Shown here piece after piece: positions 1-10,902 of a DNA stretch of 10,902 nt. Origin of the DNA: Treponema sp. Lineage in GTDB: Bacteria > Spirochaetota > Spirochaetia > Treponematales > Breznakiellaceae. Where the stretch lies: the NCBI GenBank assembly GCA_020216655.1, contig JAIWNU010000164.1, positions 1-10,902 on the forward strand, written 5' to 3'. Both the position numbers and the translations under genes were made by a program. How positions within the stretch are numbered: position 1 is the first letter of the stretch; the number at the start of each line of letters is the position of its first letter. Under the pieces are notes generated by a model. That model was not told where the DNA came from. It did no database searches and saw nothing but the letters and a program-made list of their open reading frames with translations.

Positions 1-331
1 ATTTGGTTTCCTTAGCCTTGTTATCAGCGGCTTTTTTCTCCTGAGCCTTAGTAATAGCTTCTTGAATGTAAGAAGAGGCCTGTTCTTCGGTGAACTTGAG
101 TTTCTTGCTCTCCATATTGTCCTTAAAGCCCTGCATAAACGCGTTATAATCCAGTTCAATACCCGTATCTTTCACACTTTTGCCGAGGGCCATACCTACT
201 GCATAGCTGATATCCGCCTTGGAAGCTGGTTTTGTAGCAGTAGCATCCTTAGATGTATCTGCATTACCTTTTGCATTGCAGGCGAATAACACTGTGGAAG
301 CCAAAAGAAGCGATAAGACTGTCTTTTTCAT
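1..331 (-). CDS. FKBP-type peptidyl-prolyl isomerase lipoprotein, 5' part (C-terminal part beyond the window edge)
   Basis: The first 110 codons are visible, beginning MKKTVLSLLLASTVLFACNAKG. Residues 1-17 form a lipoprotein signal peptide with an LFAC lipobox (Cys18 would be the lipidated residue). After a Thr/Ala/Lys-rich linker comes ISYAVGMALGKSVKDTGIEL followed by a DYNAFMQGFKDNM-like stretch, which matches the helical FKBP_N dimerisation domain of FkpA/Mip-type proteins. A Lys/Glu/Ala-rich helix then runs off the edge. The catalytic FKBP barrel should lie outside the window and is not seen. By family, such proteins are prolyl isomerases and chaperones of the periplasm or envelope. The start has only a weak GGA about 10 nt upstream. 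The gene follows the histidine kinase gene on the same strand after a 152-bp gap, so it probably has its own promoter. Family assignment is fairly sure; enzymatic activity is inferred. Confidence 0.85.
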   Translation of the reverse strand, partial: MKKTVLSLLLASTVLFACNAKGNADTSKDATATKPASKADISYAVGMALGKSVKDTGIELDYNAFMQGFKDNMESKKLKFTEEQASSYIQEAITKAQEKKAADNKAKETK

Positions 332-400
332 ACAAAATATTCCATATTAATGAGTTTTCAGGTTCCAGGCACCTGAAGGCCCTGAAAGAGGGTCCGTACC

Positions 401-429
401 AGCATACAGAGAAATAATAAAAGCCGCAA
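401..429 (-). promoter_or_regulatory. possible promoter for the FKBP lipoprotein gene
   Basis: In the gap between the histidine kinase gene and the FKBP gene the minus strand reads TTGCGG (424-429), a 17-nt spacer, then TATGCT (401-406). This is a mediocre sigma70-type match at the right spacing. Transcription would start near 394, giving a leader of about 60 nt. That leader contains a short dyad (TTCAGGT at 357-363 pairing with ACCTGAA at 371-377). The dyad has no T-run, so it is not a convincing terminator for the upstream operon. Confidence 0.3.
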
Positions 430-483
430 GAGGATAGTCCTCGTACCACCAATCAACGACTCGTCATTTATGAAAACCTCAGC

Positions 484-2160
484 TTAGGATTCTGATAGGG
501 TAAAGGTAAGTTTTGCGACCGTTTCTTTCACCTGAATACCTGCCCGTTTAATTGTAAAATTGGCACCAATCTGCTTTGCCATCAGTTGGACTACCTGTAA
601 CCCAAAACCAGTCGGTGTTTGCTTATCACTAGGCTCAGGGTACTTACCTCCACTATCGATGACTAGAATCGTGACATCCAGGCCATTCTTTTCTGCACTG
701 ATACGTATGGTACCTGTTTCACCGGCTTTAAAAGCATACTTAAATGCATTGGTCAAAAGCTCATTAACAATAATGCCAAGAGAAAAGAGAATACGGGCAT
801 TAAGTACGATTGGTTCAAGACATTTCTCAACCTTAATGTAGGGATCACTTGGAAACATGGCAACTAATTTATCAATAAGAGGAGACAGATAATCATTAAG
901 GGGCATTTCATTGGCCCCATCGGATCGATAAAGCAGGTCATAAAGAACAGACATACTCTGTACCCGGTTCCTTGCTTCTAACAGTGCAGCCTTTGCGGCT
1001 CCGTCCTGGACTATATCCGATTGCAGAGAAAGTAAGCCAGCGATAACGCTCATGTTGTTTTTAACCCGATGGTGAACTTCCCGTAAAAGGAGGTTTTTTT
1101 CTTCCAAAAGCTGCTGCACTTTTTTTTCAGATGCTCGCAGGCTTGTTATATCATGGAGCAAAAAAAGAGTACCCAGGATTCTGGATCGGCTGTCTGCAAT
1201 TTTTTTTACCGAAAGATCAAAGACCTTATTTTCACCCTGAATGGTGAGTTCCACATCCCGCTGGCCAGAACCTAATTTGGCCTGGGCATCAAAAAAATCT
1301 TTCCACGGAGTAGGTAAAAAATCGTTGGGTACACCAACATAATTATGCGGATTCAATCCGATAGCCTGGAGGGCTGCGGGGTTGCAATCTACAATTTGAG
1401 CTTGATTATCAAAAACGACCACCAGATCAGAAATGTGTTCCAGCACCGTGGAACGAGCAATCGGCACAAAACCAAAGAGGCGGTATTTCATAAGCGCTAC
1501 AAGATAAGCTCCACCGGTAAAAACAATGGTGCTGGCTGCGAAATTGTATCCCTTTATAGGAGTGATATTGTTGGTAAATAATATTTCCACCAAAATAGGA
1601 ATAAGAATGCCAATGATCAACAGTATAGTAGATTGTGGTTTGAGCGCCCGGTCCCTTAAAGAAATGAACATAATCAACAGGGATGAAAGAATGACTACCG
1701 CATTGTAAATGTTGCTCAGTGTAAAGATCGGGCCCGTTGTATAGTACAGGATTGGAATAACCCCTGAAGTATCTAGAGTGAAATTATAACGGAAGAGGTG
1801 ATGCCAGGGACTTGTCATGGAAGCTATAATTGAGATGATTGGAATACTGAGAACCAGAATTACATTCCGTAAGGTAATCCAGCGTTCCTTACCGCTATAT
1901 TCCAAAGCCATGTACAGAATTGCGGGAGCCATGAGCCGGGAGGGAATATACATGGCCATGGAAAGAAAAAGCCGAAGCGGATACCACACGGTAATAATTG
2001 ATAATCCATATAAAGCAATCCACCCTGCACCGACCCACATCATTAAAATAAAGGGCCTGGAAGCTGGTGTTTCCGGATACTTTTGCACATACAGCGCAAT
2101 AATAATGCAAAGCACCGTGGCAATAATTAAGGGCCAAATGTAGGGTGTATACACAAACAT
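484..2160 (-). CDS. membrane sensor histidine kinase: 7TM sensor, PAS, HisKA_2, HATPase_c
   Basis: 558 residues from the ATG at 2160. Residues about 3-228 carry roughly seven hydrophobic segments starting YTPYIWPLIIATVL, the typical opening of the HisKA_7TM sensor domain. A PAS domain follows at about 238-340 (VLEHISDLVVVFDNQAQIVDCN), ending in LLHDITSL and a short coiled coil. The kinase core is of the HisKA_2 type: REVHHRVKNNMSVIAGLLSL, with the His before Arg (about residue 364) as the expected phospho-acceptor. The HATPase shows an N-box (VNELLTNAFKYAF, about 466-478), a G1 DSGG and a G2 TGFGLQVV. By family it autophosphorylates at the membrane and signals to a separate regulator; none is encoded here. 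It is the last gene of the sugar operon, 31 nt after the phosphorylase fusion. An in-frame ATG at 2217 overlaps the upstream gene and would add 19 residues before the sensor domain. I chose 2160 because homologues start at YTPYI, though its ribosome site is weak. Confidence 0.88.
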   Translation of the reverse strand: MFVYTPYIWPLIIATVLCIIIALYVQKYPETPASRPFILMMWVGAGWIALYGLSIITVWYPLRLFLSMAMYIPSRLMAPAILYMALEYSGKERWITLRNVILVLSIPIISIIASMTSPWHHLFRYNFTLDTSGVIPILYYTTGPIFTLSNIYNAVVILSSLLIMFISLRDRALKPQSTILLIIGILIPILVEILFTNNITPIKGYNFAASTIVFTGGAYLVALMKYRLFGFVPIARSTVLEHISDLVVVFDNQAQIVDCNPAALQAIGLNPHNYVGVPNDFLPTPWKDFFDAQAKLGSGQRDVELTIQGENKVFDLSVKKIADSRSRILGTLFLLHDITSLRASEKKVQQLLEEKNLLLREVHHRVKNNMSVIAGLLSLQSDIVQDGAAKAALLEARNRVQSMSVLYDLLYRSDGANEMPLNDYLSPLIDKLVAMFPSDPYIKVEKCLEPIVLNARILFSLGIIVNELLTNAFKYAFKAGETGTIRISAEKNGLDVTILVIDSGGKYPEPSDKQTPTGFGLQVVQLMAKQIGANFTIKRAGIQVKETVAKLTFTLSES

Positions 2161-2191
2161 ACAATTAGTTTGACATTCTTTATTGGTTTCG

Positions 2192-5100
2192 TCAATCTTT
2201 TTCTCTAATACCTCCATCGAGTATAAGCCGTTCCAGGAGTTCCATAGACAATTCACCAGTATCGTGTACCTTTATATCAGCCCTATTCAAATTGTGACCG
2301 ACTCCAATAGCTTTCATACCCGCCGCCTTTATTGCATCAATACCAACCTGGGCATCTTCTATACCTATACAATCATGTGGCGATACCTTAGCCAACTCTG
2401 CGGCCCTTAAAAATAGTTCAGGATCCGGCTTTCCACAGCAGACCGTATCAGGGTCCACAATACCTTCGAAATAGGTACCAGGCACAGGACCAAGTCCTAA
2501 TTGTTCAATAATTCTCGGCGCATTCCTGCTGGCGGAAGCAATAATCCGTTTTATACCCTTCTTACCCAGTTCAAGAAGCAAATTCTGAACACCACTCAGA
2601 ATGTCCTGGGGCCCAAGCTTATCCAATAGCTTCATATAATAAGCGTTCTTTCGTTCTGCAAGCTCATGTTTTTCTTGATGCGAAAGCCGGATACTGTTGT
2701 GGTGGAGGATAATTTCTAAGGAGCCCAACCGTGAAACACCTTTTAGCGCTTCGTTCAGTTTCTCGTCAAAAGCCCAGCCGTGTTCATCCGCCAGCTGCTT
2801 CCAAGCGGCATAATGCAACCTGGCCGTATCGGTTATAACGCCATCCAGATCAAAAACAACAGCCCGTAAGACCGGTTTGAGCGAGACCGTCACCGAATCA
2901 CCTTCAAACAGGGTAATACGCTGGTTTCGATGCAAGAAGGTAAGGGACTGTGGGTTATCAGAATGTTCGCGGGATTGCTGACCCGCACTATTTTGGCCAG
3001 CGGGCTTTAACAAGCTATACTGTACTGCATGACGACCTAAATCTACTTTTAGGGTTCGGCCTTCGATCTGTAACGAGAATATAAGTCGTTTCCACTGGGA
3101 CGGAAGCCTCGGATTAAAGGAATAGCAGACATCACCGTTTCTTTGCCGCCGGTCCCGGAAACCGGCAAATCCATAGATAACAGAGAGCCAGCTACCGGCC
3201 ATAGCAGCGGTATGGATACCATCACTACTGTTGCCATGCACATCATCTAAATCCATCCGAACTGTTTTTAGGAAATACTCATAAGCCTTTTCCGAGTCGC
3301 CGATTTCAGCGGCCATAATACTTTGAATACAGTGGGAAAGAGATGAATCTCCGGTGGTCAGCTTCTCATAGAAGCGGTAATTCCGGATTTTTTCTGCAAG
3401 GCTAAATTGTTCAGAAAGCAAAAATTGGGCTAGAACTAAATCAGGCTGTTTTAGCACCTGGTGCCGGTAAATAACTAGGGGGTGAAAATGAAGCAATAAC
3501 GGATATTTTTCCCGGGGAGTATTCTCGAAGGGCCAGGGTTCCTTTGCCATAAAGGAATCATCCTGAGGATAAATTCCAGTTTTTGGATCAAAAGGAACGT
3601 ACATAGCCTCTGCGGCTCGTTTCCAGAGATCCATTTCAGATTCATCAAGATTAAGCCTTACAAGCAAGGCCTTATAGTCGGCAGGGGCTTCCTGCTTCAT
3701 GAGTCCCAGTGTATCCAGGGCAAAGCGGAGATTGTTACGAGCCATGAGATTTGTATATGCATTGTTGTTCACCAGGGCGGTGTATTCATCGGGCCCCGTT
3801 ACACAGTCAATGCGGAATAGGCCATCGGCGCCGAAATGGCCCAGGGACAACCAAAGTCGGGCCGTTTCAACCGCCACATCCGCAGCCCTATGGAAAAGGA
3901 ACTTCCGGTCCCCCGATGCCTGGCAGTATTTTTCTATGGCATACACAATATCCGCATTAATATGATACTGGGCGGTGCCTGCAGGATAATAGGCGCTGGT
4001 TTCTTCCCCATCGATGGTACGCCAGGGAAAGAGGGCCCCCTTTTCAGCCATAACCTGGGCACGCTTACGGGCCCTATCCAAAATGGAATACCGATATTCA
4101 AGAAGGCTCCGGGCAATTTCTGGCTGTGTATAGGTAAAGAGGGGACACACATAAATTTCTGTATCCCAGAAATAATGGCCCTCGTAGCCCTCGCCGGTGA
4201 GCCCTTTAGCTGCAATACTGGTCCGACCATCCCGTCCAGAAGATTGAAGTATATGGAATATGTTAAATCGGAGGGCCTGCTGAATTTCTGGATCCCCTTC
4301 TATTTGCACATCCGCAGTAGCCCAGAAGGCCTTTAAGAATTCATGCTGTTCCTGAACGAGAACGGAAAAACCTGCTTGAAAGGCCGCATCCAACAACGAT
4401 TCATTTTGTTTTTCTAAAGCTTCAATCTCCGAGGATGAGCCGTGAGTATAAGAAAAGTATTTATAGAATGTACAAGATTCACCGACCTTCATAGTCCCCA
4501 CCCAGCTATGTTGGACGGATTTATCGGAAGCTTCATAAGAAAGTGATAATTTATCTTGGGGAATCACTGCATAGCGAAGGGAGAGTACCGTCGTCAGTGC
4601 GCTCTTGTGGGTCCCCACGGTTAGGCGAGCCCGATCCCGATCAGCCTCCAGCGATATAACCTTGTAGGGGTGCTGGGAAAATTTAGAACCAACCCGGGGA
4701 TCTTTTTCTGCCTTACGGTTAGACGCAAGAGCTTCCAGCGGACTTTCGAGCCTTACAGAAACGGGCATTCCGCCAGGACTATTTAATAGGGTACATTGAT
4801 ACTCGAGGGCACCGATCGTATTCCGGACAAAGCTCACAAGCCGCCGGCTCTTAAGCCCTATGCGGCATCCATTGGGAAGCAAGGCTTCCACATTGCGGAC
4901 CAGAAGCCCCTCTTTCATATCAAGGCATCGGTTATAAGAAAAAATCTGTACCGTATCCAGTCGGAATTCTTCATTGTTTACAAAGAGCCGCACCTGTTTT
5001 GGATCCGGCAAGTTAAGAATCGTCTCATGGTTTTCCGCATAGCCATAGGCAATTTCTCCATAGACAATCGGTTCTTTTTCAAAAAAGCCATTAATATAGG

Positions 5101-5254
5101 TTCCCCGGTGAAATGCCGGCTGCGGTTCATCAAAATCGCCCCGTAGTCCCAGGTGTCCATTTGCTAGGGTAAAAAGCGTTTCATCCTTTCCAAGGCTTTG
5201 CTTATTCCATTTTCTTTCTATTATTTTCCATTCCTGTATTTCAGTGCTGCTCAT
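2192..5254 (-). CDS. fused GH65 disaccharide phosphorylase / beta-phosphoglucomutase (HAD)
   Basis: 1020 residues. Residues about 1-790 are a complete GH65 inverting phosphorylase: an N-terminal beta-sandwich (to about 280), an (alpha/alpha)6 barrel with FWDTEIYVCP (362-371), the catalytic-acid motif GPDEYT (Glu490), a phosphate-binding loop TTGDSSLS (633-640) and GIHTAAMAGSW (679-689). Residues about 796-1015 are a beta-phosphoglucomutase-type HAD domain with FDLDGVITDT (nucleophile Asp802, acid/base Asp804), SASRNAP (907-913), CGKPDPELF (Lys942) and the Mg-binding IEDAQVG (Glu966/Asp967). By family, GH65 cleaves maltose, trehalose, kojibiose or nigerose with phosphate to give beta-glucose 1-phosphate, and the HAD domain turns this into glucose 6-phosphate. 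The two steps are thus tethered in one cytoplasmic chain. The substrate cannot be read safely from the sequence. The start overlaps the repressor gene by 14 bp, with AGGAG (5263-5267) 8 nt upstream, which suggests translational coupling. Confidence 0.93.
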   Translation of the reverse strand: MSSTEIQEWKIIERKWNKQSLGKDETLFTLANGHLGLRGDFDEPQPAFHRGTYINGFFEKEPIVYGEIAYGYAENHETILNLPDPKQVRLFVNNEEFRLDTVQIFSYNRCLDMKEGLLVRNVEALLPNGCRIGLKSRRLVSFVRNTIGALEYQCTLLNSPGGMPVSVRLESPLEALASNRKAEKDPRVGSKFSQHPYKVISLEADRDRARLTVGTHKSALTTVLSLRYAVIPQDKLSLSYEASDKSVQHSWVGTMKVGESCTFYKYFSYTHGSSSEIEALEKQNESLLDAAFQAGFSVLVQEQHEFLKAFWATADVQIEGDPEIQQALRFNIFHILQSSGRDGRTSIAAKGLTGEGYEGHYFWDTEIYVCPLFTYTQPEIARSLLEYRYSILDRARKRAQVMAEKGALFPWRTIDGEETSAYYPAGTAQYHINADIVYAIEKYCQASGDRKFLFHRAADVAVETARLWLSLGHFGADGLFRIDCVTGPDEYTALVNNNAYTNLMARNNLRFALDTLGLMKQEAPADYKALLVRLNLDESEMDLWKRAAEAMYVPFDPKTGIYPQDDSFMAKEPWPFENTPREKYPLLLHFHPLVIYRHQVLKQPDLVLAQFLLSEQFSLAEKIRNYRFYEKLTTGDSSLSHCIQSIMAAEIGDSEKAYEYFLKTVRMDLDDVHGNSSDGIHTAAMAGSWLSVIYGFAGFRDRRQRNGDVCYSFNPRLPSQWKRLIFSLQIEGRTLKVDLGRHAVQYSLLKPAGQNSAGQQSREHSDNPQSLTFLHRNQRITLFEGDSVTVSLKPVLRAVVFDLDGVITDTARLHYAAWKQLADEHGWAFDEKLNEALKGVSRLGSLEIILHHNSIRLSHQEKHELAERKNAYYMKLLDKLGPQDILSGVQNLLLELGKKGIKRIIASASRNAPRIIEQLGLGPVPGTYFEGIVDPDTVCCGKPDPELFLRAAELAKVSPHDCIGIEDAQVGIDAIKAAGMKAIGVGHNLNRADIKVHDTGELSMELLERLILDGGIREKD

Positions 5255-6290
5255 GATGTATACTCCTGCAAGAATCTCTTTGTGCTAATACGGTTGGTAA
5301 AATGATACGGTGCATTTCTGTTTCCTGTTGCACCGCAGACGGTGAAAGTATTTGCCGCAAAACAAGCCGGGCAGCGGCCTCGCCGAGCCCTGCAGCAGGC
5401 TGGGTTACGGTTGTAAGCGGCGGATTTAAATATCGGGAAAGGTAGTCATCGTCAAAACCGGCGAGGGATATATCGCCGGGAATATCAAGCCCCGCATCCT
5501 GAATAGCCTGCATGGCGCCATAGGCCACCACATCGTTTCCTGCAAAAACTGCTGTGGGCCTGTCTGCCAGGTCAAGCAATTCCCGCATAGCCCGGTAGCC
5601 TGAAGCTTCGGTAAAATCGGCAATACGAATGTATTCGTCGTGAATGGGAAGATCAGCGGTCTCAAGGGCTGCTTTGTATCCTGCAAGCCGATGCGCTGCG
5701 GCATAATAGCTCACCGGCGCATGGACAATCATTGCGATTTTCTTATGCCCCAGCGAAATTAAATATTCAGCCATCTCTCTTGCCGCAGCGATATTATCAA
5801 TATCTACCTGAGGTATACGAAGCTCTTGAATAGACCCGATAACAACAAGGGGAATACCCGCTCGTTCCAGATCAGCTATACCGGGGTCATTGGTATGGGT
5901 GTTGATGAGTATCACCCCGTCGAGGGCTTGGGACCGGACTAGTTCAACATAGTTAGTCTGGGATTGCCGCAAAGGTTGTAAGACCAACCGACACCGGTTT
6001 TTGTTGAACACCAGAGCCATCCCATCAATAAGGCGGATAATATAGGCATCGGTAAAGATCGAGCTTGAGTGGCTGATAAAAAAGCCAATAGTGAAATGGG
6101 TGCGGCGGGCTACGCTCACCGCATCCTCATCGGGCACATATTCCAATGCACTGGCCGCCTGGAGAACCCGCTGTCGTGTAGCTTCGCTGATATGCTTACC
6201 AGGTGTATTGTTCAAAATGAACGACACCGTTGTCCGAGACACACCGGCCAGCTTTGCCACATCGGATGCCGAAACCATACGCTTTTTCAT
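5241..6290 (-). CDS. LacI-family transcriptional repressor of the sugar operon
   Basis: 349 residues. Residues 6-28 are the LacI helix-turn-helix (SASDVAKLAGVSRTTVSFIL), followed by the hinge helix region (RQRVLQAASALEYVPD). A periplasmic-binding-protein-like effector domain covers about 60-340, with typical stretches such as LDGVILI, ISLGHKKIAMI, PTAVFAGNDVVAYGAMQ and DISLAGFDDDYLSRYLNPPLTTVTQP. By family it is a dimeric repressor released by a sugar or sugar phosphate. It lies inside the operon it probably controls, 41 nt after the MalG-type gene and overlapping the phosphorylase gene by 14 bp. The best operator candidate is the inverted repeat at 9605-9626. The start at 6290 has GAGGG close upstream (3 nt) and AAGGA farther up; the in-frame Met at 6278 has no ribosome site. 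The effector is unknown but is likely the disaccharide or glucose derivative. Confidence 0.92.
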   Translation of the reverse strand: MKKRMVSASDVAKLAGVSRTTVSFILNNTPGKHISEATRQRVLQAASALEYVPDEDAVSVARRTHFTIGFFISHSSSIFTDAYIIRLIDGMALVFNKNRCRLVLQPLRQSQTNYVELVRSQALDGVILINTHTNDPGIADLERAGIPLVVIGSIQELRIPQVDIDNIAAAREMAEYLISLGHKKIAMIVHAPVSYYAAAHRLAGYKAALETADLPIHDEYIRIADFTEASGYRAMRELLDLADRPTAVFAGNDVVAYGAMQAIQDAGLDIPGDISLAGFDDDYLSRYLNPPLTTVTQPAAGLGEAAARLVLRQILSPSAVQQETEMHRIILPTVLAQRDSCRSIHHEQH

Positions 6291-6331
6291 CTGCCCTCTA
6301 TCCTTTTGCTCTTATTTTTGCTTTTAAGGTT

Positions 6332-7204
6332 TTATTCTTTGACCGAACCGGCAAGAACACCTTTAACAAAATATTGCTGTAATCCAAAGAAGACCACAAG
6401 GGGCAGAGCCATGGATATAAAGGCCGCTGCGGTCAGATATTCCCAGCCACCGCCATAGGAATTGACCAAGTTACCAATAGTAACCGTCATCGGGGCGACG
6501 TCAGGGGTACCGCCCAGATACACAAGGGCGATAAGAAGGTCATTCCACACCCACATAAACTGGAAAATTGCCAGCGATGAAATGGCGGGAATAGAGGTTG
6601 GCACTATCAGTTTGAGGAATATCAATGGATGGGAAGCCCCGTCGATCTCGGCGGATTCTATCATGGAAGGAGGCAATTGGGCGATAAAATTCCGCAATAG
6701 ATATACCGCAAAGGGAAGTCCATAGGCTGTATGGGCAAGCCAAATACCGGTAAAACTCCCTGTAAGCCCCAGACTGTTAAATATACGCAGCACCGGGATC
6801 ATGGTCATTTGGAGAGGCACTACAATGAGCGCCACCACGAGCAGAAAGAGGGTCTTTCTTAAGGGGAAACGCATCCACGCAAAAGCATAGGCTGCCGCAG
6901 CGGCAATAAAGATCGGAATCACTGTTGAAGGAACTGCAATGAGTAAACTGTTAATAAAACTCCTGCCCATGTTTCCCTGGGATATTACATGCTTATAGTT
7001 ATCCAAAGTAAAAGCAAAGGGGCTCTTCAAAGCCTCCCACCAGCCACTTATAGCTATAAGATTTTTCGGCCGAAAGGAGCTGATAAAAAGCCCGACCGAA
7101 GGGACCATCCAGACTATGCATGCAAGGATAAGCACAAGGTGAAGCGGAATTGCAGACAGGGCTTTGTGATACTGAGCTTTTAGGGAATTGATTTTTTTAC
7201 TCAT
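6332..7204 (-). CDS. MalG-type ABC sugar transporter permease
   Basis: 290 residues with about six hydrophobic membrane segments. The cytoplasmic EAA loop is clear: ESAEIDGA (about 183-190), then FLKLIVPTSIPAI, the contact site for the ATPase subunit. The C-terminal KGVLAGSVKE is typical of MalG/carbohydrate CUT1 permeases. It pairs with the MalF-type protein to form the inner-membrane channel that receives sugar from the binding protein. The start is taken at 7204 rather than the in-frame ATG at 7219, because GGAGG (7211-7215) lies 6 nt before 7204 and the product then begins MSKKINS. The ATG at 7204 overlaps the end of the upstream permease gene by 8 bp, implying coupled translation and equal amounts of both subunits. 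The gene is complete and normal in length. Confidence 0.92.
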   Translation of the reverse strand: MSKKINSLKAQYHKALSAIPLHLVLILACIVWMVPSVGLFISSFRPKNLIAISGWWEALKSPFAFTLDNYKHVISQGNMGRSFINSLLIAVPSTVIPIFIAAAAAYAFAWMRFPLRKTLFLLVVALIVVPLQMTMIPVLRIFNSLGLTGSFTGIWLAHTAYGLPFAVYLLRNFIAQLPPSMIESAEIDGASHPLIFLKLIVPTSIPAISSLAIFQFMWVWNDLLIALVYLGGTPDVAPMTVTIGNLVNSYGGGWEYLTAAAFISMALPLVVFFGLQQYFVKGVLAGSVKE

Positions 7205-8177
7205 GGGAAGCCTCCGCATTAAATCGTTTTATATTGATGACCATGACAGGAATTATGGCCACGAGGAGCAGTGTTGCGATCGCACTTGCCCTGCCATAAT
7301 TACGATAATTGAACATTTCCTTGTACATGCGGTTTGCGATAACCTCGGTACCAAGGTTACCATTGGTCATCACATATACGATGTCAAAGACTTTCAGAAC
7401 ATTTATGATAAGGGTGGTTGCTACCACCGTAATCGTCGGGAGTAATAAGGGAAGGATAATTTTAATAAATATGGTGAACTCCCCTGCCCCGTCCATACGT
7501 GCCGCCTCCAAAAGGTCTTCGCTGATTCCCTTGAGTCCCGCTGAAAGGATCACCATGGCAAAACCGGTCCACATCCAGATACCAACCACGATGAGAGCAA
7601 TGTTATTGGTGGAACGGTCAAAAAGCCATGCCTTTGGTTCAAAAGCAGGATTTATTACAGAAAGAACAGCATTCACCGTACCAATTTGCGGGGAGCCAGC
7701 AGGGCGATATTCATACATAAATTTCCAGATAACACCGGCTGCGACAAAAGAAATGGCCATGGGCAAAAAAATAAAGGCCTTTGCAACAGACTCATATCGG
7801 ACCCGGTCGGCCAGGAGTGCAATCAAAAGGCCAAAGAAGAGACAAAAGAGAGTAAACAGTACCAGCCATAACACATTATTTCGGAGCACCACCAGCATGT
7901 TGGCATCAGTAAATATATATAAGTAATTAGCAAAGCCTACAAAATTAGCTGACTTGGCATCTAAAAAACTGAGATATACCGTATTCGCAGCCGGATATAC
8001 CAAAAATACGACAAGGAGAGAAAGGGCCGGAAGCAACCAAAGCCAAGGCCGAAGAGAACCAGATATTTTTCGAGGTGTGCGGGAAACCACTAGCTCGGTT
8101 ACCACAAGGTATGACCATATAAGAACTGGAATAATCCCTATTGCCAGGATAGCTATTAAAAAATAGTTTACATGCAT
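7197..8177 (-). CDS. MalF-type ABC sugar transporter permease
   Basis: 326 residues with about seven to eight hydrophobic segments. One N-terminal helix (5-27) precedes the usual six-helix permease core, which begins at RPWLWLLPALSLLVVFLVYP. The EAA loop reads EAARMDGA (224-231), then FIKIILPLLLPTI, which is close to the consensus for CUT1 permeases. It forms a heterodimer with the MalG-type protein in the cytoplasmic membrane. A periplasmic loop with WLFDRSTNN separates the middle helices, as in other MalF-like proteins of this size (shorter than E. coli MalF). The start has AAGGCGGA about 5 nt upstream. The gene is separated from the binding-protein gene by 83 bp containing a strong hairpin. 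Confidence 0.92.
   Translation of the reverse strand: MHVNYFLIAILAIGIIPVLIWSYLVVTELVVSRTPRKISGSLRPWLWLLPALSLLVVFLVYPAANTVYLSFLDAKSANFVGFANYLYIFTDANMLVVLRNNVLWLVLFTLFCLFFGLLIALLADRVRYESVAKAFIFLPMAISFVAAGVIWKFMYEYRPAGSPQIGTVNAVLSVINPAFEPKAWLFDRSTNNIALIVVGIWMWTGFAMVILSAGLKGISEDLLEAARMDGAGEFTIFIKIILPLLLPTITVVATTLIINVLKVFDIVYVMTNGNLGTEVIANRMYKEMFNYRNYGRASAIATLLLVAIIPVMVINIKRFNAEASHE
7211..7215 (-). promoter_or_regulatory. ribosome binding site that sets the MalG-type start
   Basis: GGAGG on the minus strand lies 6 nt before the ATG at 7204 and inside the last codons of the MalF-type gene. It supports the start at 7204 over the alternative ATG five codons upstream at 7219. Confidence 0.75.
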
Positions 8178-8211
8178 GCTGTTCCGCCTTATGCTCTGTG
8201 ATTACAACTAA

Positions 8212-8239
8212 CAAGCCGGAACTACACAGTTCCGGCTTG
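8212..8239 (-). promoter_or_regulatory. intercistronic 12-bp hairpin between binding-protein and permease genes
   Basis: The arms CAAGCCGGAACT (8212-8223) and AGTTCCGGCTTG (8228-8239) are perfectly complementary with a 4-nt loop. On the transcribed (minus) strand the right side continues TTAGTTGTAATC, which is not a good T-run. It is therefore more likely a leaky terminator or a 3' stabiliser of the binding-protein mRNA than a full stop. Such hairpins after malE-type genes are a known way to make more binding protein than permease. The stem sits 21 bp after the binding-protein stop codon and 34 bp before the permease start. Confidence 0.75.
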
Positions 8240-8260
8240 AAGAACTGATTTTTCTATCTA

Positions 8261-9568
8261 TTATTTATATGCTTCCTTGCGGACCTTTTCGAGACCGGCC
8301 AGAATGGAATCCAGGTTTTTCGGACTTTCAATATAGCTCACCACGGCGGACCAGAAAGCCGCATTCATTTCAGGCTTCATCATGTCAGAAGCGTCGAATA
8401 CAACAATCTCAGCCTTATTCATGATGTCAGCAGCCCGTTTGGTAAGAGCATCTGGATAGAATACAAGAGAAACATTCTTGTTGGTAGCCAAGGCTCCCGT
8501 ACCGGCTGCCCAATAGGCCTGAGCTTCTGCACTCGCCAGGTAATTTACAAAGGCGCGGACTTCTGGGGTATTCTTAAATACACCGATAACATCCGCTGCA
8601 CCTTCTACTGCCTTAGCATATTTTGCTTCGATGCTGGGGAAGGCCACAAAATCAAAGTCTTCAACAGGCTTCAGGCTCGGGAACTGGTTCATAATAAAGC
8701 TCTGGATAAAACTAGCCTGATGATGGAACAATGCTTTGGGAGGATTGCTAAAGAGCGGTTCATGGGCATTACCAAAGTTGGTTGAATTAACATATTTTGA
8801 ACCGCCGTAAATCATTTTAGAATCCGCAATAATCTGGCCCCAAATCTCCCATGCTTTCCGTACTTCAGGGCTGGTCCAAGCCAGCTTACCCTCGTACCAT
8901 TCCTTGTACTTTTCGGGACCATTCACACGCAGGAAAATGTTCTCGAGCCAGTCAGTTCCAACCCAGCCGGATGCAGCACCGCTTTCTACACCAATCGCCC
9001 AAGGAGCAAGTCCCTTATCAATCGCCTGCTTGGAATAGTTCATCATATCATTCCAGGTCCAGGTATTGGTAGGCGGATTCACACCAGCGGCCTTAAATGT
9101 TTTGGGATTGTACCATACAAGACCTTTGATGGCCGCTTTTGTAAAGATACCATAGAGTTTGCCATCTACGGTTCCCAGATCCTTCCAGCCAGCAGAATAG
9201 TTCTTGTTAAATTCGTTCATATCAAGAATTTGAGCCAGATCTACAAGTTTTCCAGTCTTGGCGAGTTCTACCAGCTTACCGGGACCGGGAAGCCCCGCTA
9301 CATCGGGGGGATTTCCCGCCTCAACCCGGGTTGTAATGACCGCATCCAAATCCCGCGTTGCTTCGAGTTCTACTTTAATACCAGTCCGTTCTTCGAAGGG
9401 TTTAACCATTGCACGGAATACTTCCGCTTCCTGGCCGCCCCATACGGCTAAAAAGTTGATGGTTTTTTGGCCACCGCTGCCAGATGCGTCCTTTTCGGTG
9501 CTGCCAGCGGCGAATACGAGACCAAACACCGCAAGTGCCATGACGAGTGTCATTGCGAGCTTTTTCAT
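8261..9568 (-). CDS. ABC transporter sugar-binding protein (family 1 extracellular solute-binding)
   Basis: 435 residues from the ATG at 9568. Residues 1-20 form a Sec signal peptide ending VFA, with mature AGSTEKDASGSGG, the pattern often seen in spirochaete sugar-binding proteins. There is no lipobox Cys. The mature part has the order of the family-1 solute-binding fold: INFLAVWGGQEAEVFRAMV, FEERTGIKVELEATRD, a variable ligand region rich in Trp (ASGWVGTDWLEN), and the late VEGAADVIGVFKNTPEVRAFVNYL motif near the C-terminus. It binds the sugar outside the cytoplasmic membrane and delivers it to the MalF/MalG-type pair encoded next. It is the first gene of the operon. The reading frame is open 29 codons further up to 9655, but GGAGGT 4 nt before 9568 and the signal peptide fix the start. 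The ligand is inferred to be the GH65 substrate. Confidence 0.93.
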   Translation of the reverse strand: MKKLAMTLVMALAVFGLVFAAGSTEKDASGSGGQKTINFLAVWGGQEAEVFRAMVKPFEERTGIKVELEATRDLDAVITTRVEAGNPPDVAGLPGPGKLVELAKTGKLVDLAQILDMNEFNKNYSAGWKDLGTVDGKLYGIFTKAAIKGLVWYNPKTFKAAGVNPPTNTWTWNDMMNYSKQAIDKGLAPWAIGVESGAASGWVGTDWLENIFLRVNGPEKYKEWYEGKLAWTSPEVRKAWEIWGQIIADSKMIYGGSKYVNSTNFGNAHEPLFSNPPKALFHHQASFIQSFIMNQFPSLKPVEDFDFVAFPSIEAKYAKAVEGAADVIGVFKNTPEVRAFVNYLASAEAQAYWAAGTGALATNKNVSLVFYPDALTKRAADIMNKAEIVVFDASDMMKPEMNAAFWSAVVSYIESPKNLDSILAGLEKVRKEAYK

Positions 9569-9572
9569 AGGT

Positions 9573-9578
9573 ACCTCC
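9573..9578 (-). promoter_or_regulatory. ribosome binding site that sets the binding-protein start
   Basis: GGAGGT on the minus strand, 4 nt before the ATG at 9568. It rules out the longer in-frame start at 9655, which would place the signal peptide internally and lies upstream of the promoter -10. Confidence 0.8.
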
Positions 9579-9604
9579 ATTTGTCCAATTTGTATGTTCT
9601 TTGC

Positions 9605-9655: not shown

Positions 9656-10058
9656 GAAGAATTTTTTAGAAAAAGAGCCAATCCTTCCCGCCTTTTTCCC
9701 GGACTTATTGATTTAACAATCCTGGATAAATGCCTAAATACCGAGCTAATGCGGCAGCACTTTTGCTTGATGTTCTCGCCAGATCCAATGTATTACGCTA
9801 CAGCGCCTCCTGATACGTCCTTAGCTGCTTTTACATATGCTCGACATCCTATAAAATTCAGAGAGGCATCTCCTCTTGTCCACTAAATCGGGGAAAATCC
9901 AGTTTTGAGCCCTCTTTTTTAATTTACTTACTGTTTTAGCTTTAGTAGAAGTGCCGGACTACTGGAAAGGGAAGCGGGTGTAAGATAGAGCAATGTTAAA
10001 AATAGAGAATTTGGTGTTTTTTTACATTTTCTTGCTAGATAAATATTTAAAAAATGTG
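9656..10058. other. gene-poor spacer between the sugar operon and the small-peptide locus
   Basis: About 400 bp between divergent transcription units without a convincing gene. Short open frames on both strands have no ribosome site or recognisable product. One minus-strand stretch (9705-9788) reads LDLARTSSKSAAALARYLGI and continues a few residues to a stop. It has the flavour of a helix-turn-helix from an IS3-type OrfA, but it is too short to call. The right end (from about 10010) is very A+T-rich, with repeated TTTACATTTT-like words at 10021 and 10082 and the inverse AAAATGT at 10051. Confidence 0.5.
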
Positions 10059-10098
10059 TTGACAATTTTTTTTTTTTTGAATTTACATTTTTTGTAAT
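10059..10098 (+). promoter_or_regulatory. probable promoter of the small-peptide genes with a T13 tract in the spacer
   Basis: A consensus -35 TTGACA (10059-10064) is followed by A and then 13 T in a row (10066-10078). At 17-18 nt spacing only weak -10 words are found (TTTACA at 10082, TTACAT at 10083; three of six matches each). A better -10, TGTAAT (10093-10098, five of six), is 28 nt away, too far for normal spacing. The exact -10 is therefore uncertain. A homopolymer in this place could change length by slippage. Confidence 0.5.
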
Positions 10099-10099
10099 C

Positions 10100-10119
10100 T
10101 TGTCCAGGGCCCAGGACAA
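10100..10119 (+). promoter_or_regulatory. 20-bp dyad, possible operator or leader hairpin of the small-peptide genes
   Basis: TTGTCC (10100-10105) and GGACAA (10114-10119) flank A-GGGCCC-A. The whole is symmetric except for an A opposite A on each side of the GGGCCC centre. It lies between the likely promoter and the first AGGAGG. As DNA it looks like a binding site for a dimeric regulator; as RNA it would form a 6-bp stem with an 8-nt loop. Neither regulator nor function is known. Confidence 0.5.
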
Positions 10120-10141
10120 AAAGTTACTTTAGGAGGGATAT

Positions 10142-10279
10142 ATGGAAATGAGAAAGATTGACCTGGAAGAGCTTGAAGTTATTGAGGAATCCACCGACAA
10201 TGCCTGGGGGGTTGTTTGTGGGATCGCTTGTAGTGGCTATGGCTGTGGTTTATGGTGCAATGGCAATTGGTGTTGGTAG
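10142..10279 (+). CDS. small Cys/Gly/Trp-rich peptide 1, probable RiPP precursor
   Basis: 45 residues: acidic leader MEMRKIDLEELEVIEESTDN (1-20) followed by A and a tail of about 24 residues containing five Cys (26, 30, 35, 39, 44), seven Gly and four Trp, ending WCW. Cys spacing is regular: x3, x4, x3, x4. AGGAGG (10131-10136) lies 5 nt before the ATG, so translation signals are strong. The leader matches that of the next gene at 11 of 21 positions with most others conservative, while the tail differs; this leader/core division is typical of ribosomally made, modified peptides. The core has one Ser and no Thr, so lanthionine chemistry is unlikely. Cys-to-azole, radical-SAM thioether (sacti/ranthi type) or disulfide products are all open. 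The leader's ID-L-E-E-L resembles FNLD-like enzyme-recognition boxes. No family is recognised; the RiPP call is inference. Confidence 0.7.
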   Translation: MEMRKIDLEELEVIEESTDNAWGVVCGIACSGYGCGLWCNGNWCW

Positions 10280-10314
10280 ATTTAAAGAGGATAAATAATT
10301 AGGAGGAACTCTGT

Positions 10315-10449
10315 ATGGAATTAAAGAAAATAAATTTGGATGATCTAACTTTTATTGAAGAAACCATTGAAAATGCTAATTGGGGATGGTTTTGTTCAGT
10401 CGGGATGGTTTGTGGTGGTGGTTGTTTTGGTGGTTTTTGTATTGGATAA
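10315..10449 (+). CDS. small Cys/Gly-rich peptide 2, probable RiPP precursor paralogue
   Basis: 44 residues: leader MELKKINLDDLTFIEETIEN (1-20), then A-N-W-G-W and a tail with four Cys (27, 33, 37, 42) and many Gly, ending FCIG. The final C-x3-C-x4-C (33-42) lines up with C35-x3-C39-x4-C44 of the peptide encoded just upstream, and both cores open with W-G-x-x-C. AGGAGG (10301-10306) lies 8 nt before the ATG, and the gap from the previous stop is 35 nt, so the two genes form a tandem pair on one transcript. The core has a single Ser (28) and no Thr. Core codons are almost all GGT and TGT, giving a G/T-rich coding strand with a GGT triplet run. It is probably a duplicated precursor with a diversified core; maturation enzymes are not in the window. 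Confidence 0.7.
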   Translation: MELKKINLDDLTFIEETIENANWGWFCSVGMVCGGGCFGGFCIG

Positions 10450-10462
10450 TTAAATAAGAAGT

Positions 10463-10482
10463 GGCCGGACTAAAGTCCGGTC
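10463..10482 (+). terminator. hairpin after the peptide genes, possible attenuator
   Basis: GGCCGGAC (10463-10470) pairs with GTCCGGTC (10475-10482; one G-T pair) around a TAAA loop, an 8-bp stem rich in G+C inside A+T-rich DNA. The following TCAATATAATCTC has no solid T-run, so it is a weak or partial terminator at most. A leaky stop here would make precursors more abundant than the downstream products, a common RiPP-operon arrangement. Confidence 0.55.
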
Positions 10483-10510
10483 AATATAATCTCATAAGGT
10501 TTAACAAGAA

Positions 10511-10858
10511 ATGAAAAGAATATGGGTAAAAACAGCCTTCGTTTTATTTTTTATTGTAATTAAGATTCCGGCGCAAGAAGTGATAGCAAGGTCAAAGATA
10601 ACGAGTTTCCCAGGTACAGAAGCAAGTGGTATTCTTATAGTTAATACTACACCATTAGTAAAAGACGATTTTATTATTTTGCCGGGGACAAAGGTTTCAT
10701 ATGGAGGCTTTGCTCGTACTGATGTAATTCGAGTTATTAATAAATGGGACGGTTCTGTTGTTTGGGAGCGATTTATAGGAGAGCTTATAAATGATTATCA
10801 TCTTATTGGGGATCGCTATTTGTCAAGCAAGTTGTCACCTGATTACCCGACCTTCTGA
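10511..10858 (+). CDS. short secreted PQQ/BamB-like beta-propeller fragment, possibly truncated
   Basis: 115 residues. An N-terminal signal peptide MKRIWVKTAFVLFFIVIKIP is cleaved near PAQ-E. The mature part has the rhythm of PQQ-like (quinoprotein) propeller blades: TPLVKDDFIILPG, VIRVINKWDGSVVWERFIG, then LINDYHLIGDRYL; WDGSVVWE corresponds to the usual T-G-x-x-x-W blade motif. Only about one and a half blades are present, where full propellers need six to eight. It ends in TGA overlapping an ATG in another frame (TGATG), so either the propeller gene is broken by a frameshift near 10840-10858 or this is a coupled small protein. The ribosome site is weak (AAGG 11 nt upstream). It lies 61 nt after the second peptide gene, past a hairpin. 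A link to peptide export or immunity is possible but unsupported. Confidence 0.55.
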   Translation: MKRIWVKTAFVLFFIVIKIPAQEVIARSKITSFPGTEASGILIVNTTPLVKDDFIILPGTKVSYGGFARTDVIRVINKWDGSVVWERFIGELINDYHLIGDRYLSSKLSPDYPTF

Positions 10859-10902
10859 TGAATAAAACGCTTAGTATCGTGGGAGGGATTCAAGTAAACG
10901 AC
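10858..10902 (+). CDS. start of a further reading frame running off the window
   Basis: ATG at 10858 overlaps the preceding TGA by one base and opens a frame reading MNKTLSIVGGIQVND to the edge. Only 15 codons are visible and no ribosome site is needed if translation is coupled. The frame is closed by a stop at 10840-10842 just upstream. The residues could be the next strands of the propeller (frameshifted continuation) or the start of a new protein; this cannot be decided here. Confidence 0.35.
   Translation, partial: MNKTLSIVGGIQVND

Follow-up and report, generated by a model that had tools for sequence, protein, structure and literature searches.

The window analysed here, the entire 10,902-base contig (C190) of a metagenome-assembled genome (MAG) of Treponema sp. 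(GCA_020216655.1, here G000), carries near its right-hand end two adjacent small genes, A and B, whose reading as precursors of ribosomally synthesized and post-translationally modified peptides (RiPPs) is well supported. An earlier note on this DNA, made from the sequence alone, had proposed such a reading, and it gains support from a cultured relative, Treponema sp. J25, in which the pair lies in the same gene run as an M50 protease with a predicted RiPP recognition element (RRE), with genes for a radical S-adenosylmethionine (SAM) enzyme and an ATP-binding cassette (ABC) ATPase on the likely continuation of that run. Directly observed are the pair itself and its conserved copy in a second species, the propeller and M50 genes that run in the same direction in J25 and, on another J25 contig end, the genes for the radical SAM enzyme, the ATPase and a likely permease. 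Taken as a whole, we consider it probable that A and B are a RiPP precursor pair with thioether-linked cores, released by the RRE-M50 protease and yielding an exported, probably antibacterial product.

As the earlier note had stated, each of the two genes is preceded by AGGAGG and their products are alike over the first 21 residues (Table 1). Eleven of these residues are identical (BLOSUM62 score 60, reached by none of 200,000 shuffles), the overall identity between A and B is 48% and one single BLASTP comparison of the two returns E 3e-08. The leaders are acidic, at a net charge of -4 to -6; the cores, which keep two to four Trp residues, are hydrophobic. Cysteines are spaced by 3, 4, 3 and 4 residues in A and by 5, 3 and 4 in B, so that C-x3-C-x4-C is common to both, as is W-G-x-x-C, and the reported retention of these two motifs in both tails is therefore borne out. 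The cores are also nearly devoid of Ser and Thr, as described, with one Ser and no Thr in each window core (0-1 Ser and no Thr over all cores), and they end in Trp or Tyr in A and in Gly in B. Both products fit the general definition of RiPPs as short ribosomal precursors with a conserved leader and a variable core. Neither peptide has a match in Pfam, and NCBIfam yields only sub-threshold chance matches, with none to a curated model of SCIFF or other precursors up to E 10, a range in which the HMMER filters drop most weak matches. Among 5.8 billion proteins, the sole match of precursor A is the window's own copy. The leader pattern K-I-x-L-[DE]-[DE]-L-x-x-I-E-E, searched as degenerate DNA in genome_contigs, a collection that may omit genomes close to that of the window, recovers 29 stretches, none of which (0/29) holds a short Cys-rich open reading frame (ORF).

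Precursor A was also searched in 58 genomes (its own and 57 relatives), of which 18 give a match at E <= 1. Only the matches in the window organism and in J25 (G017) are clear, the remaining ones (E 0.1-1) looking like chance. J25, isolated from a hot spring and available in culture, belongs to the family of the window organism and is described as a strictly anaerobic, xylan-fermenting thermophile from the Jermuk spring, with a genome GC content of 49.6% and strain number DSM100394 (PMC8307006). It keeps the order of A and B, separated by 32 bases as against 35 in the window, and window positions 9902-10809 align with it in a single block of 84% identity (772/915). Between the two species A is identical at 39/45 and B at 37/44 residues, as against 48% between A and B, and the duplication must therefore predate the species split; Cys positions are invariant within each peptide. 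The 89 codons of both genes show 12 synonymous and 13 non-synonymous differences (synonymous rate, dS, 0.308; non-synonymous rate, dN, 0.078), which, together with the conserved order, indicates that A and B are more than chance ORFs, and the occurrence of two divergent cores in the same order in two species suggests a two-component product. According to the earlier note, a lack of modification, protease or export genes nearby and of homologues of the leader would have spoken against its proposal. A homologous pair is present in one other genome, accompanied by candidates for all three functions.

The window contig closes some 450 bases past B, in an insertion sequence (IS) end, and hence the rest of the locus had to be sought in the relative. 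On one strand of J25 contig C8, A and B are followed by two genes, the first for a protein of 452 amino acids (aa) that probably carries a signal peptide and the second for an M50 protein of 385 aa. The former gene corresponds to that starting at window position 10511 (75% identity over residues 1-103). Its product matches PQQ_2 above the cut-off (E 4e-7) and its structure model, of low confidence (mean predicted local distance difference test, pLDDT, 68.2), matches structures of BamB, a lipoprotein of the outer-membrane assembly complex, with 5ayw_B as the best (E 1.9e-15; 10-12% identity). On the BamB equivalog, however, this propeller scores only 22.8 of 285.2 bits. The M50 protein carries HELGH and matches PF02163 above the cut-off. 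In its model, of middling confidence (pLDDT 76.5), residues 112-288 match the site-2 protease 3b4r and residues 1-94 match the leader-bound RREs of TbiB1 (5v1v) and PbtF (8t19) as well as TigE; this N-terminal segment is predicted to be an RRE leader-binding domain, which would provide the leader recognition expected of a RiPP system.

The best NCBIfam model for the M50 protein is YydH/LiaK, at 25.2 of 225 bits and thus below the cut-off, and it reaches 15.5 of 300 bits on the daptide protease model. Its relatives are few. A protein search restricted to the 7991 candidates with the most words in common returned P0003 (72% identity), P0004 (49%), P0005 (39%) and two weak ones, with the YydH/LiaK model giving 38.8 bits for P0003, 38.6 for P0005 (cut-off 225) and no match for P0004. 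The more distant P0005 (398 aa) matches the daptide protease (E 7e-11) about as well as YydH/LiaK (E 9e-10), and the 187,233-base contig on which it is encoded may carry the locus without interruption. Overlapping sets of 195 family, 390 order and 392 phylum genomes each yielded the M50 gene in a single genome, the same one every time. Its profile gave pattern matches in genome_contigs (78) and viral_contigs (181), of which none could be confirmed, and the protein has no match in the plasmid collection searched, the phage collection lying outside that search.

Contig C8 itself stops in an IS end (23,437-23,533, L025; 73% identity over 89 bases to that of the window), just after the start of another gene. 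The motif of this end, TTGACAAATAGC, occurs in 11 copies in J25, ten of them at contig ends, 4 to 108 bases before the contig end, and the eleventh inside C33, in surroundings unlike this IS; the opposite end, ACTATTATGGCAGAGCG, has nine exact copies. Genes were read at seven of the ten first-type ends (both ends of C8, and C40, C44, C53, C55 and C57), with C15, C31 and C51 assessed by GC content, and at all nine second-type ends, mostly over 1.5 kb only. Among the flanks read, RiPP-type genes occur only at the end of C12, which was found through a survey of PF04055 matches (24 in J25, 19 in the window organism) that examined reading frames for 23 of the 24 J25 matches, one match, on C31, having no motif-bearing frame. 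The first reading frame at the C12 end, that of a likely secreted protein, has no start and is still open at the IS junction; it is followed by genes for a 461-aa radical SAM protein (16 Cys), a 210-aa ABC ATPase (PF00005) and a 255-aa likely permease that has no family match. On C8 the propeller and M50 genes have GC contents of 29.9% and 26.3% (47.6% in the neighbouring sequence), and on C12 the secreted protein, radical SAM, ATPase and permease genes have 30.2, 27.5, 28.3 and 27.7% (51.4% in the neighbouring sequence). The other two second-type flanks below 33% GC look by eye CRISPR-related (C13) and glycosyltransferase-like (C36), in kind with the C8 start and the C44 end, respectively. 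As continuations of C8, C44 and C53 were rejected: neither has RiPP-type genes in the stretch read, and C44 carries glycosyltransferase-like genes by eye. Because C8 and C12 bear the two ends of one IS, share a low GC content and remain after elimination of the other IS ends, we regard the order C8-IS-C12 as highly probable.

Related IS ends interrupt different genes of the same gene run in the window organism and in J25, and the two insertions are apparently independent. In the window-organism assembly (2.66 Mb in 251 contigs, 89.6% complete), searches recovered neither the remainder of the propeller gene nor genes for the M50 protease and the radical SAM enzyme. The J25 assembly is broken at about ten copies of the same IS, which also splits what by eye are type III CRISPR components at the start of C8 (L024, 131-1670) and the end of C13 (L135).

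Among the best 25 of 67 NCBIfam models matched by the radical SAM enzyme, the maturases of PapB (E 5e-49), nif11-type (1e-41), quinohemoprotein (9e-39), SCIFF (7e-32) and CcpM (2e-31) peptides rank first; these 25 include no YydG model, and the matches extend to DynA and cyclophane maturases. The enzyme stays below the curated cut-offs, scoring 167.2 bits on the PapB model (cut-off 340) and 110.9 bits on that of the SCIFF maturase (cut-off 425). Its best sequence match in the PDB is 5wgg (E 2e-25), the title of which refers to thioether formation in sactipeptides, and by eye its C-terminal Cys pattern fits a SPASM domain. Within the family, 5 of 195 genomes return a match to it at E <= 1e-15, four of them partial, with 28-38% identity. 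YcaO has no match at E <= 0.1 in either the window organism or J25, and azoles are therefore disfavoured. Of the chemistries contemplated in the earlier note (azoles, radical-SAM thioethers or another Cys chemistry), the first thus loses ground and the second gains it: given the best models of the radical SAM enzyme and the lack of YcaO, the most likely product is a single or paired Cys-thioether peptide released by the M50 protease.

It seems reasonable to postulate, on these grounds, that the acidic leader common to A and B would be held by the predicted RRE of the membrane site-2 (M50) protease and that the Cys/Gly/Trp cores would be cross-linked through their cysteine sulfur by the PapB/SCIFF-like radical SAM enzyme. 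The protease would cut near the conserved N-A / W-G junction, freeing the product, the ABC transporter would either export this product or protect the producer, and the peptide would leave the cell, probably as an antibacterial. Cleavage just before W-G would leave unmodified cores with monoisotopic masses of 2616.98 (A) and 2231.99 (B), cleavage one residue earlier 2688.02 and 2347.02, and each thioether would lower these values by 2.016. Two observations weigh against A and B being more than chance ORFs. The 23 codons of the B core, taken alone, carry no purifying signal (dN 0.099, dS 0.071, one synonymous change), and a simple sigma-70 scan of positions 9950-10600 finds no promoter, with 2.0 expected by chance; a terminator scan alongside it found none either.

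Several known systems share parts of this arrangement. For daptides, a leader motif, ELExMEAP, is described that accompanies the fusion of an RRE to the N-terminus of a site-2 protease (PMC10036551). By eye, leader A has a similar stretch in ELEVIEES and leader B in DLTFIEET, and the earlier note, which recognised no described family with this leader, is not supported on that point as worded. J25 also resembles daptide loci in its RRE-site-2-protease fusion, predicted from the fold, in having several short precursors per locus and in its ABC transporter. In contrast to daptides, A and B lack the invariant C-terminal Thr. The J25 genes read at the two contig ends, up to but not across the IS, include no decarboxylase, aminotransferase or methyltransferase gene. 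Both epipeptides and pearlins have been described with M50 proteases (PMC10885120), and the epipeptide operon of Bacillus subtilis (yydFGHIJ / epeXEPAB) has, like the proposed J25 locus, a precursor, a radical SAM enzyme, an M50 protease, an ABC ATPase and a permease. It differs in that J25 has two Cys-rich precursors and not YydF, and a protease with an extra N-terminal domain that falls below the YydH/LiaK cut-off; the available portion of the yydFGHIJ description (PMC7026026) has no counterpart for the two secreted proteins of J25. With ranthipeptides and SCIFF (maturases PapB and ScfB/CteB) the locus shares short Cys-rich precursors and a radical SAM enzyme nearest PapB, but the maturase scores below both cut-offs and neither A nor B has a match among the models of such precursors. 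Azole RiPPs (linear azole-containing peptides, LAP) are set apart by YcaO, without a match in either genome at E <= 0.1, and lanthipeptides by the scarcity of Ser and Thr in the cores, the LanB, LanC and LanM genes lying outside the search. The locus appears to be a new variant that joins daptide, ranthipeptide and epipeptide features and passes none of the curated family cut-offs tested. The new RiPP class suggested earlier is too strong a claim, given that RRE-site-2-protease fusions are known for daptides and that parts of the locus resemble the epipeptide operon.

The similarity in function set to yydFGHIJ (PMC7026026), with YydH/LiaK as top model of the protease, also lends some support to another radical chemistry at the same RiPP locus, namely epimerisation or carbon-carbon/cyclophane links at Trp, with the cysteines as disulfides or free thiols. 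The DynA and cyclophane maturases among the radical SAM matches and the Trp residues kept in the cores point the same way, but the PapB, nif11-type, SCIFF and CcpM maturases outscore them and the Cys positions do not vary within each peptide, which makes this chemistry unlikely. The BamB-like protein beside the precursors could point to target or immunity, and a far-reaching version of this idea, which we hold to be very unlikely, would assign the locus to a new class of RiPPs from diderm spirochaetes. In this view, the RRE-site-2 protease would release two hydrophobic Cys/Gly/Trp peptides, cross-linked by radical-SAM chemistry and acting as two components, which would attack the machinery with which rivals assemble their outer membrane, and the propeller would serve the producer as its own decoy or immunity protein. 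Since the adjacency of C8 and C12 is deduced and not sequenced, the peptides might instead be cut by the M50 protease only and oxidised to disulfides, with the radical SAM enzyme serving elsewhere; the IS ends, GC contents and elimination of other ends favour adjacency, and the run that joins the radical SAM gene to those of the ABC ATPase and the likely permease has no separate precursor genes over the 1 kb read, so that we judge this decidedly improbable. That A and B are not RiPPs, but ORFs arisen by chance or small peptides rich in Cys with a metal-binding or regulatory role, as the failure to match Pfam, the sub-threshold NCBIfam results and the solitary protein match might suggest, is hardly credible in view of their coding-type conservation, a duplication older than the species split, ribosome-binding sites and the neighbouring RRE-M50 gene.

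If the thioether-pair explanation holds, the locus would represent a radical-SAM RiPP mixing a daptide-like RRE-site-2 protease, a PapB/SCIFF-like maturase and an epipeptide-like transporter. Spirochaete RiPPs are rarely described: a 2014 survey of 211 anaerobe genomes reports RiPP clusters in 4 of 21 Spirochaetes, with azole-type ones in Brachyspira (PMC4289311). Our literature search, largely confined to papers outside subscription, found no spirochaete radical-SAM RiPP with an RRE-M50 protease, and nothing on PqqD with peptidase M50 or on darobactin with BamB, immunity and radical SAM. With J25 cultured and free-living, the locus is testable at once.

Table 1. Positions of the features of the precursor region in the window.
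Feature	Position	Strand	Basis
Dyad TTACA-N5-TGTAA 5' of gene A, kept in J25; possible operator	10083..10097	+	sequence
Inverted repeat TTGTCC-N8-GGACAA 5' of A, identical in J25; possible operator	10100..10119	+	sequence
Ribosome-binding site of A, AGGAGG	10131..10136	+	sequence
Precursor A, 45 aa: acidic leader (residues 1-21), core from W22, 5 Cys	10142..10279	+	ORF and sequence comparison
Ribosome-binding site of B, AGGAGG	10301..10306	+	sequence
Precursor B, 44 aa: acidic leader, Gly-rich core, 4 Cys	10315..10449	+	ORF and sequence comparison
Stable hairpin between B and the propeller gene, kept in J25	10462..10483	+	z -4.13 (window), -5.47 (J25)
Secreted BamB-like propeller gene, first ~101 codons, then interrupted by IS end	10511..10813	+	comparison with J25 homologue
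IS end closing the contig, outside the RiPP locus	10814..10902	.	

Both dyads upstream of A lie between a poly-T tract and the start of the gene, and they are a possible operator of some regulator. TTACA-N5-TGTAA is present in 10 of 141 loci, eight of them copies of the same upstream region and two unrelated, and TTGTCC-N8-GGACAA in eight, every one a copy of that region; as RNA, the latter folds no better than shuffles (z -0.09 and 0.72). The hairpin downstream of B, which has no T-run behind it, is perhaps a processing or stoichiometry element.

On the left of the pair, positions 9902-9982 hold the 3' end of a gene that by eye is glycosyltransferase-like and that J25 holds whole upstream of the pair. 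As only the 3' end stays, this neighbour appears to have been conserved once and then lost or to have decayed in the window organism. Bases 1-9600 look unrelated by eye, a sugar-uptake region for the most part on the minus strand. It includes a 1020-aa ORF (2192-5254, minus strand), by eye a glycoside phosphorylase fused to a beta-phosphoglucomutase-like HAD domain, adjoining a LacI-type regulator and a sugar ABC transporter (also by eye), and a histidine-kinase-like protein (484-2256, minus strand). In J25, an ORF similar to the latter starts at the IS end at the beginning of contig C55 (L080), and a similar N-terminal piece sits at the IS end of C44.
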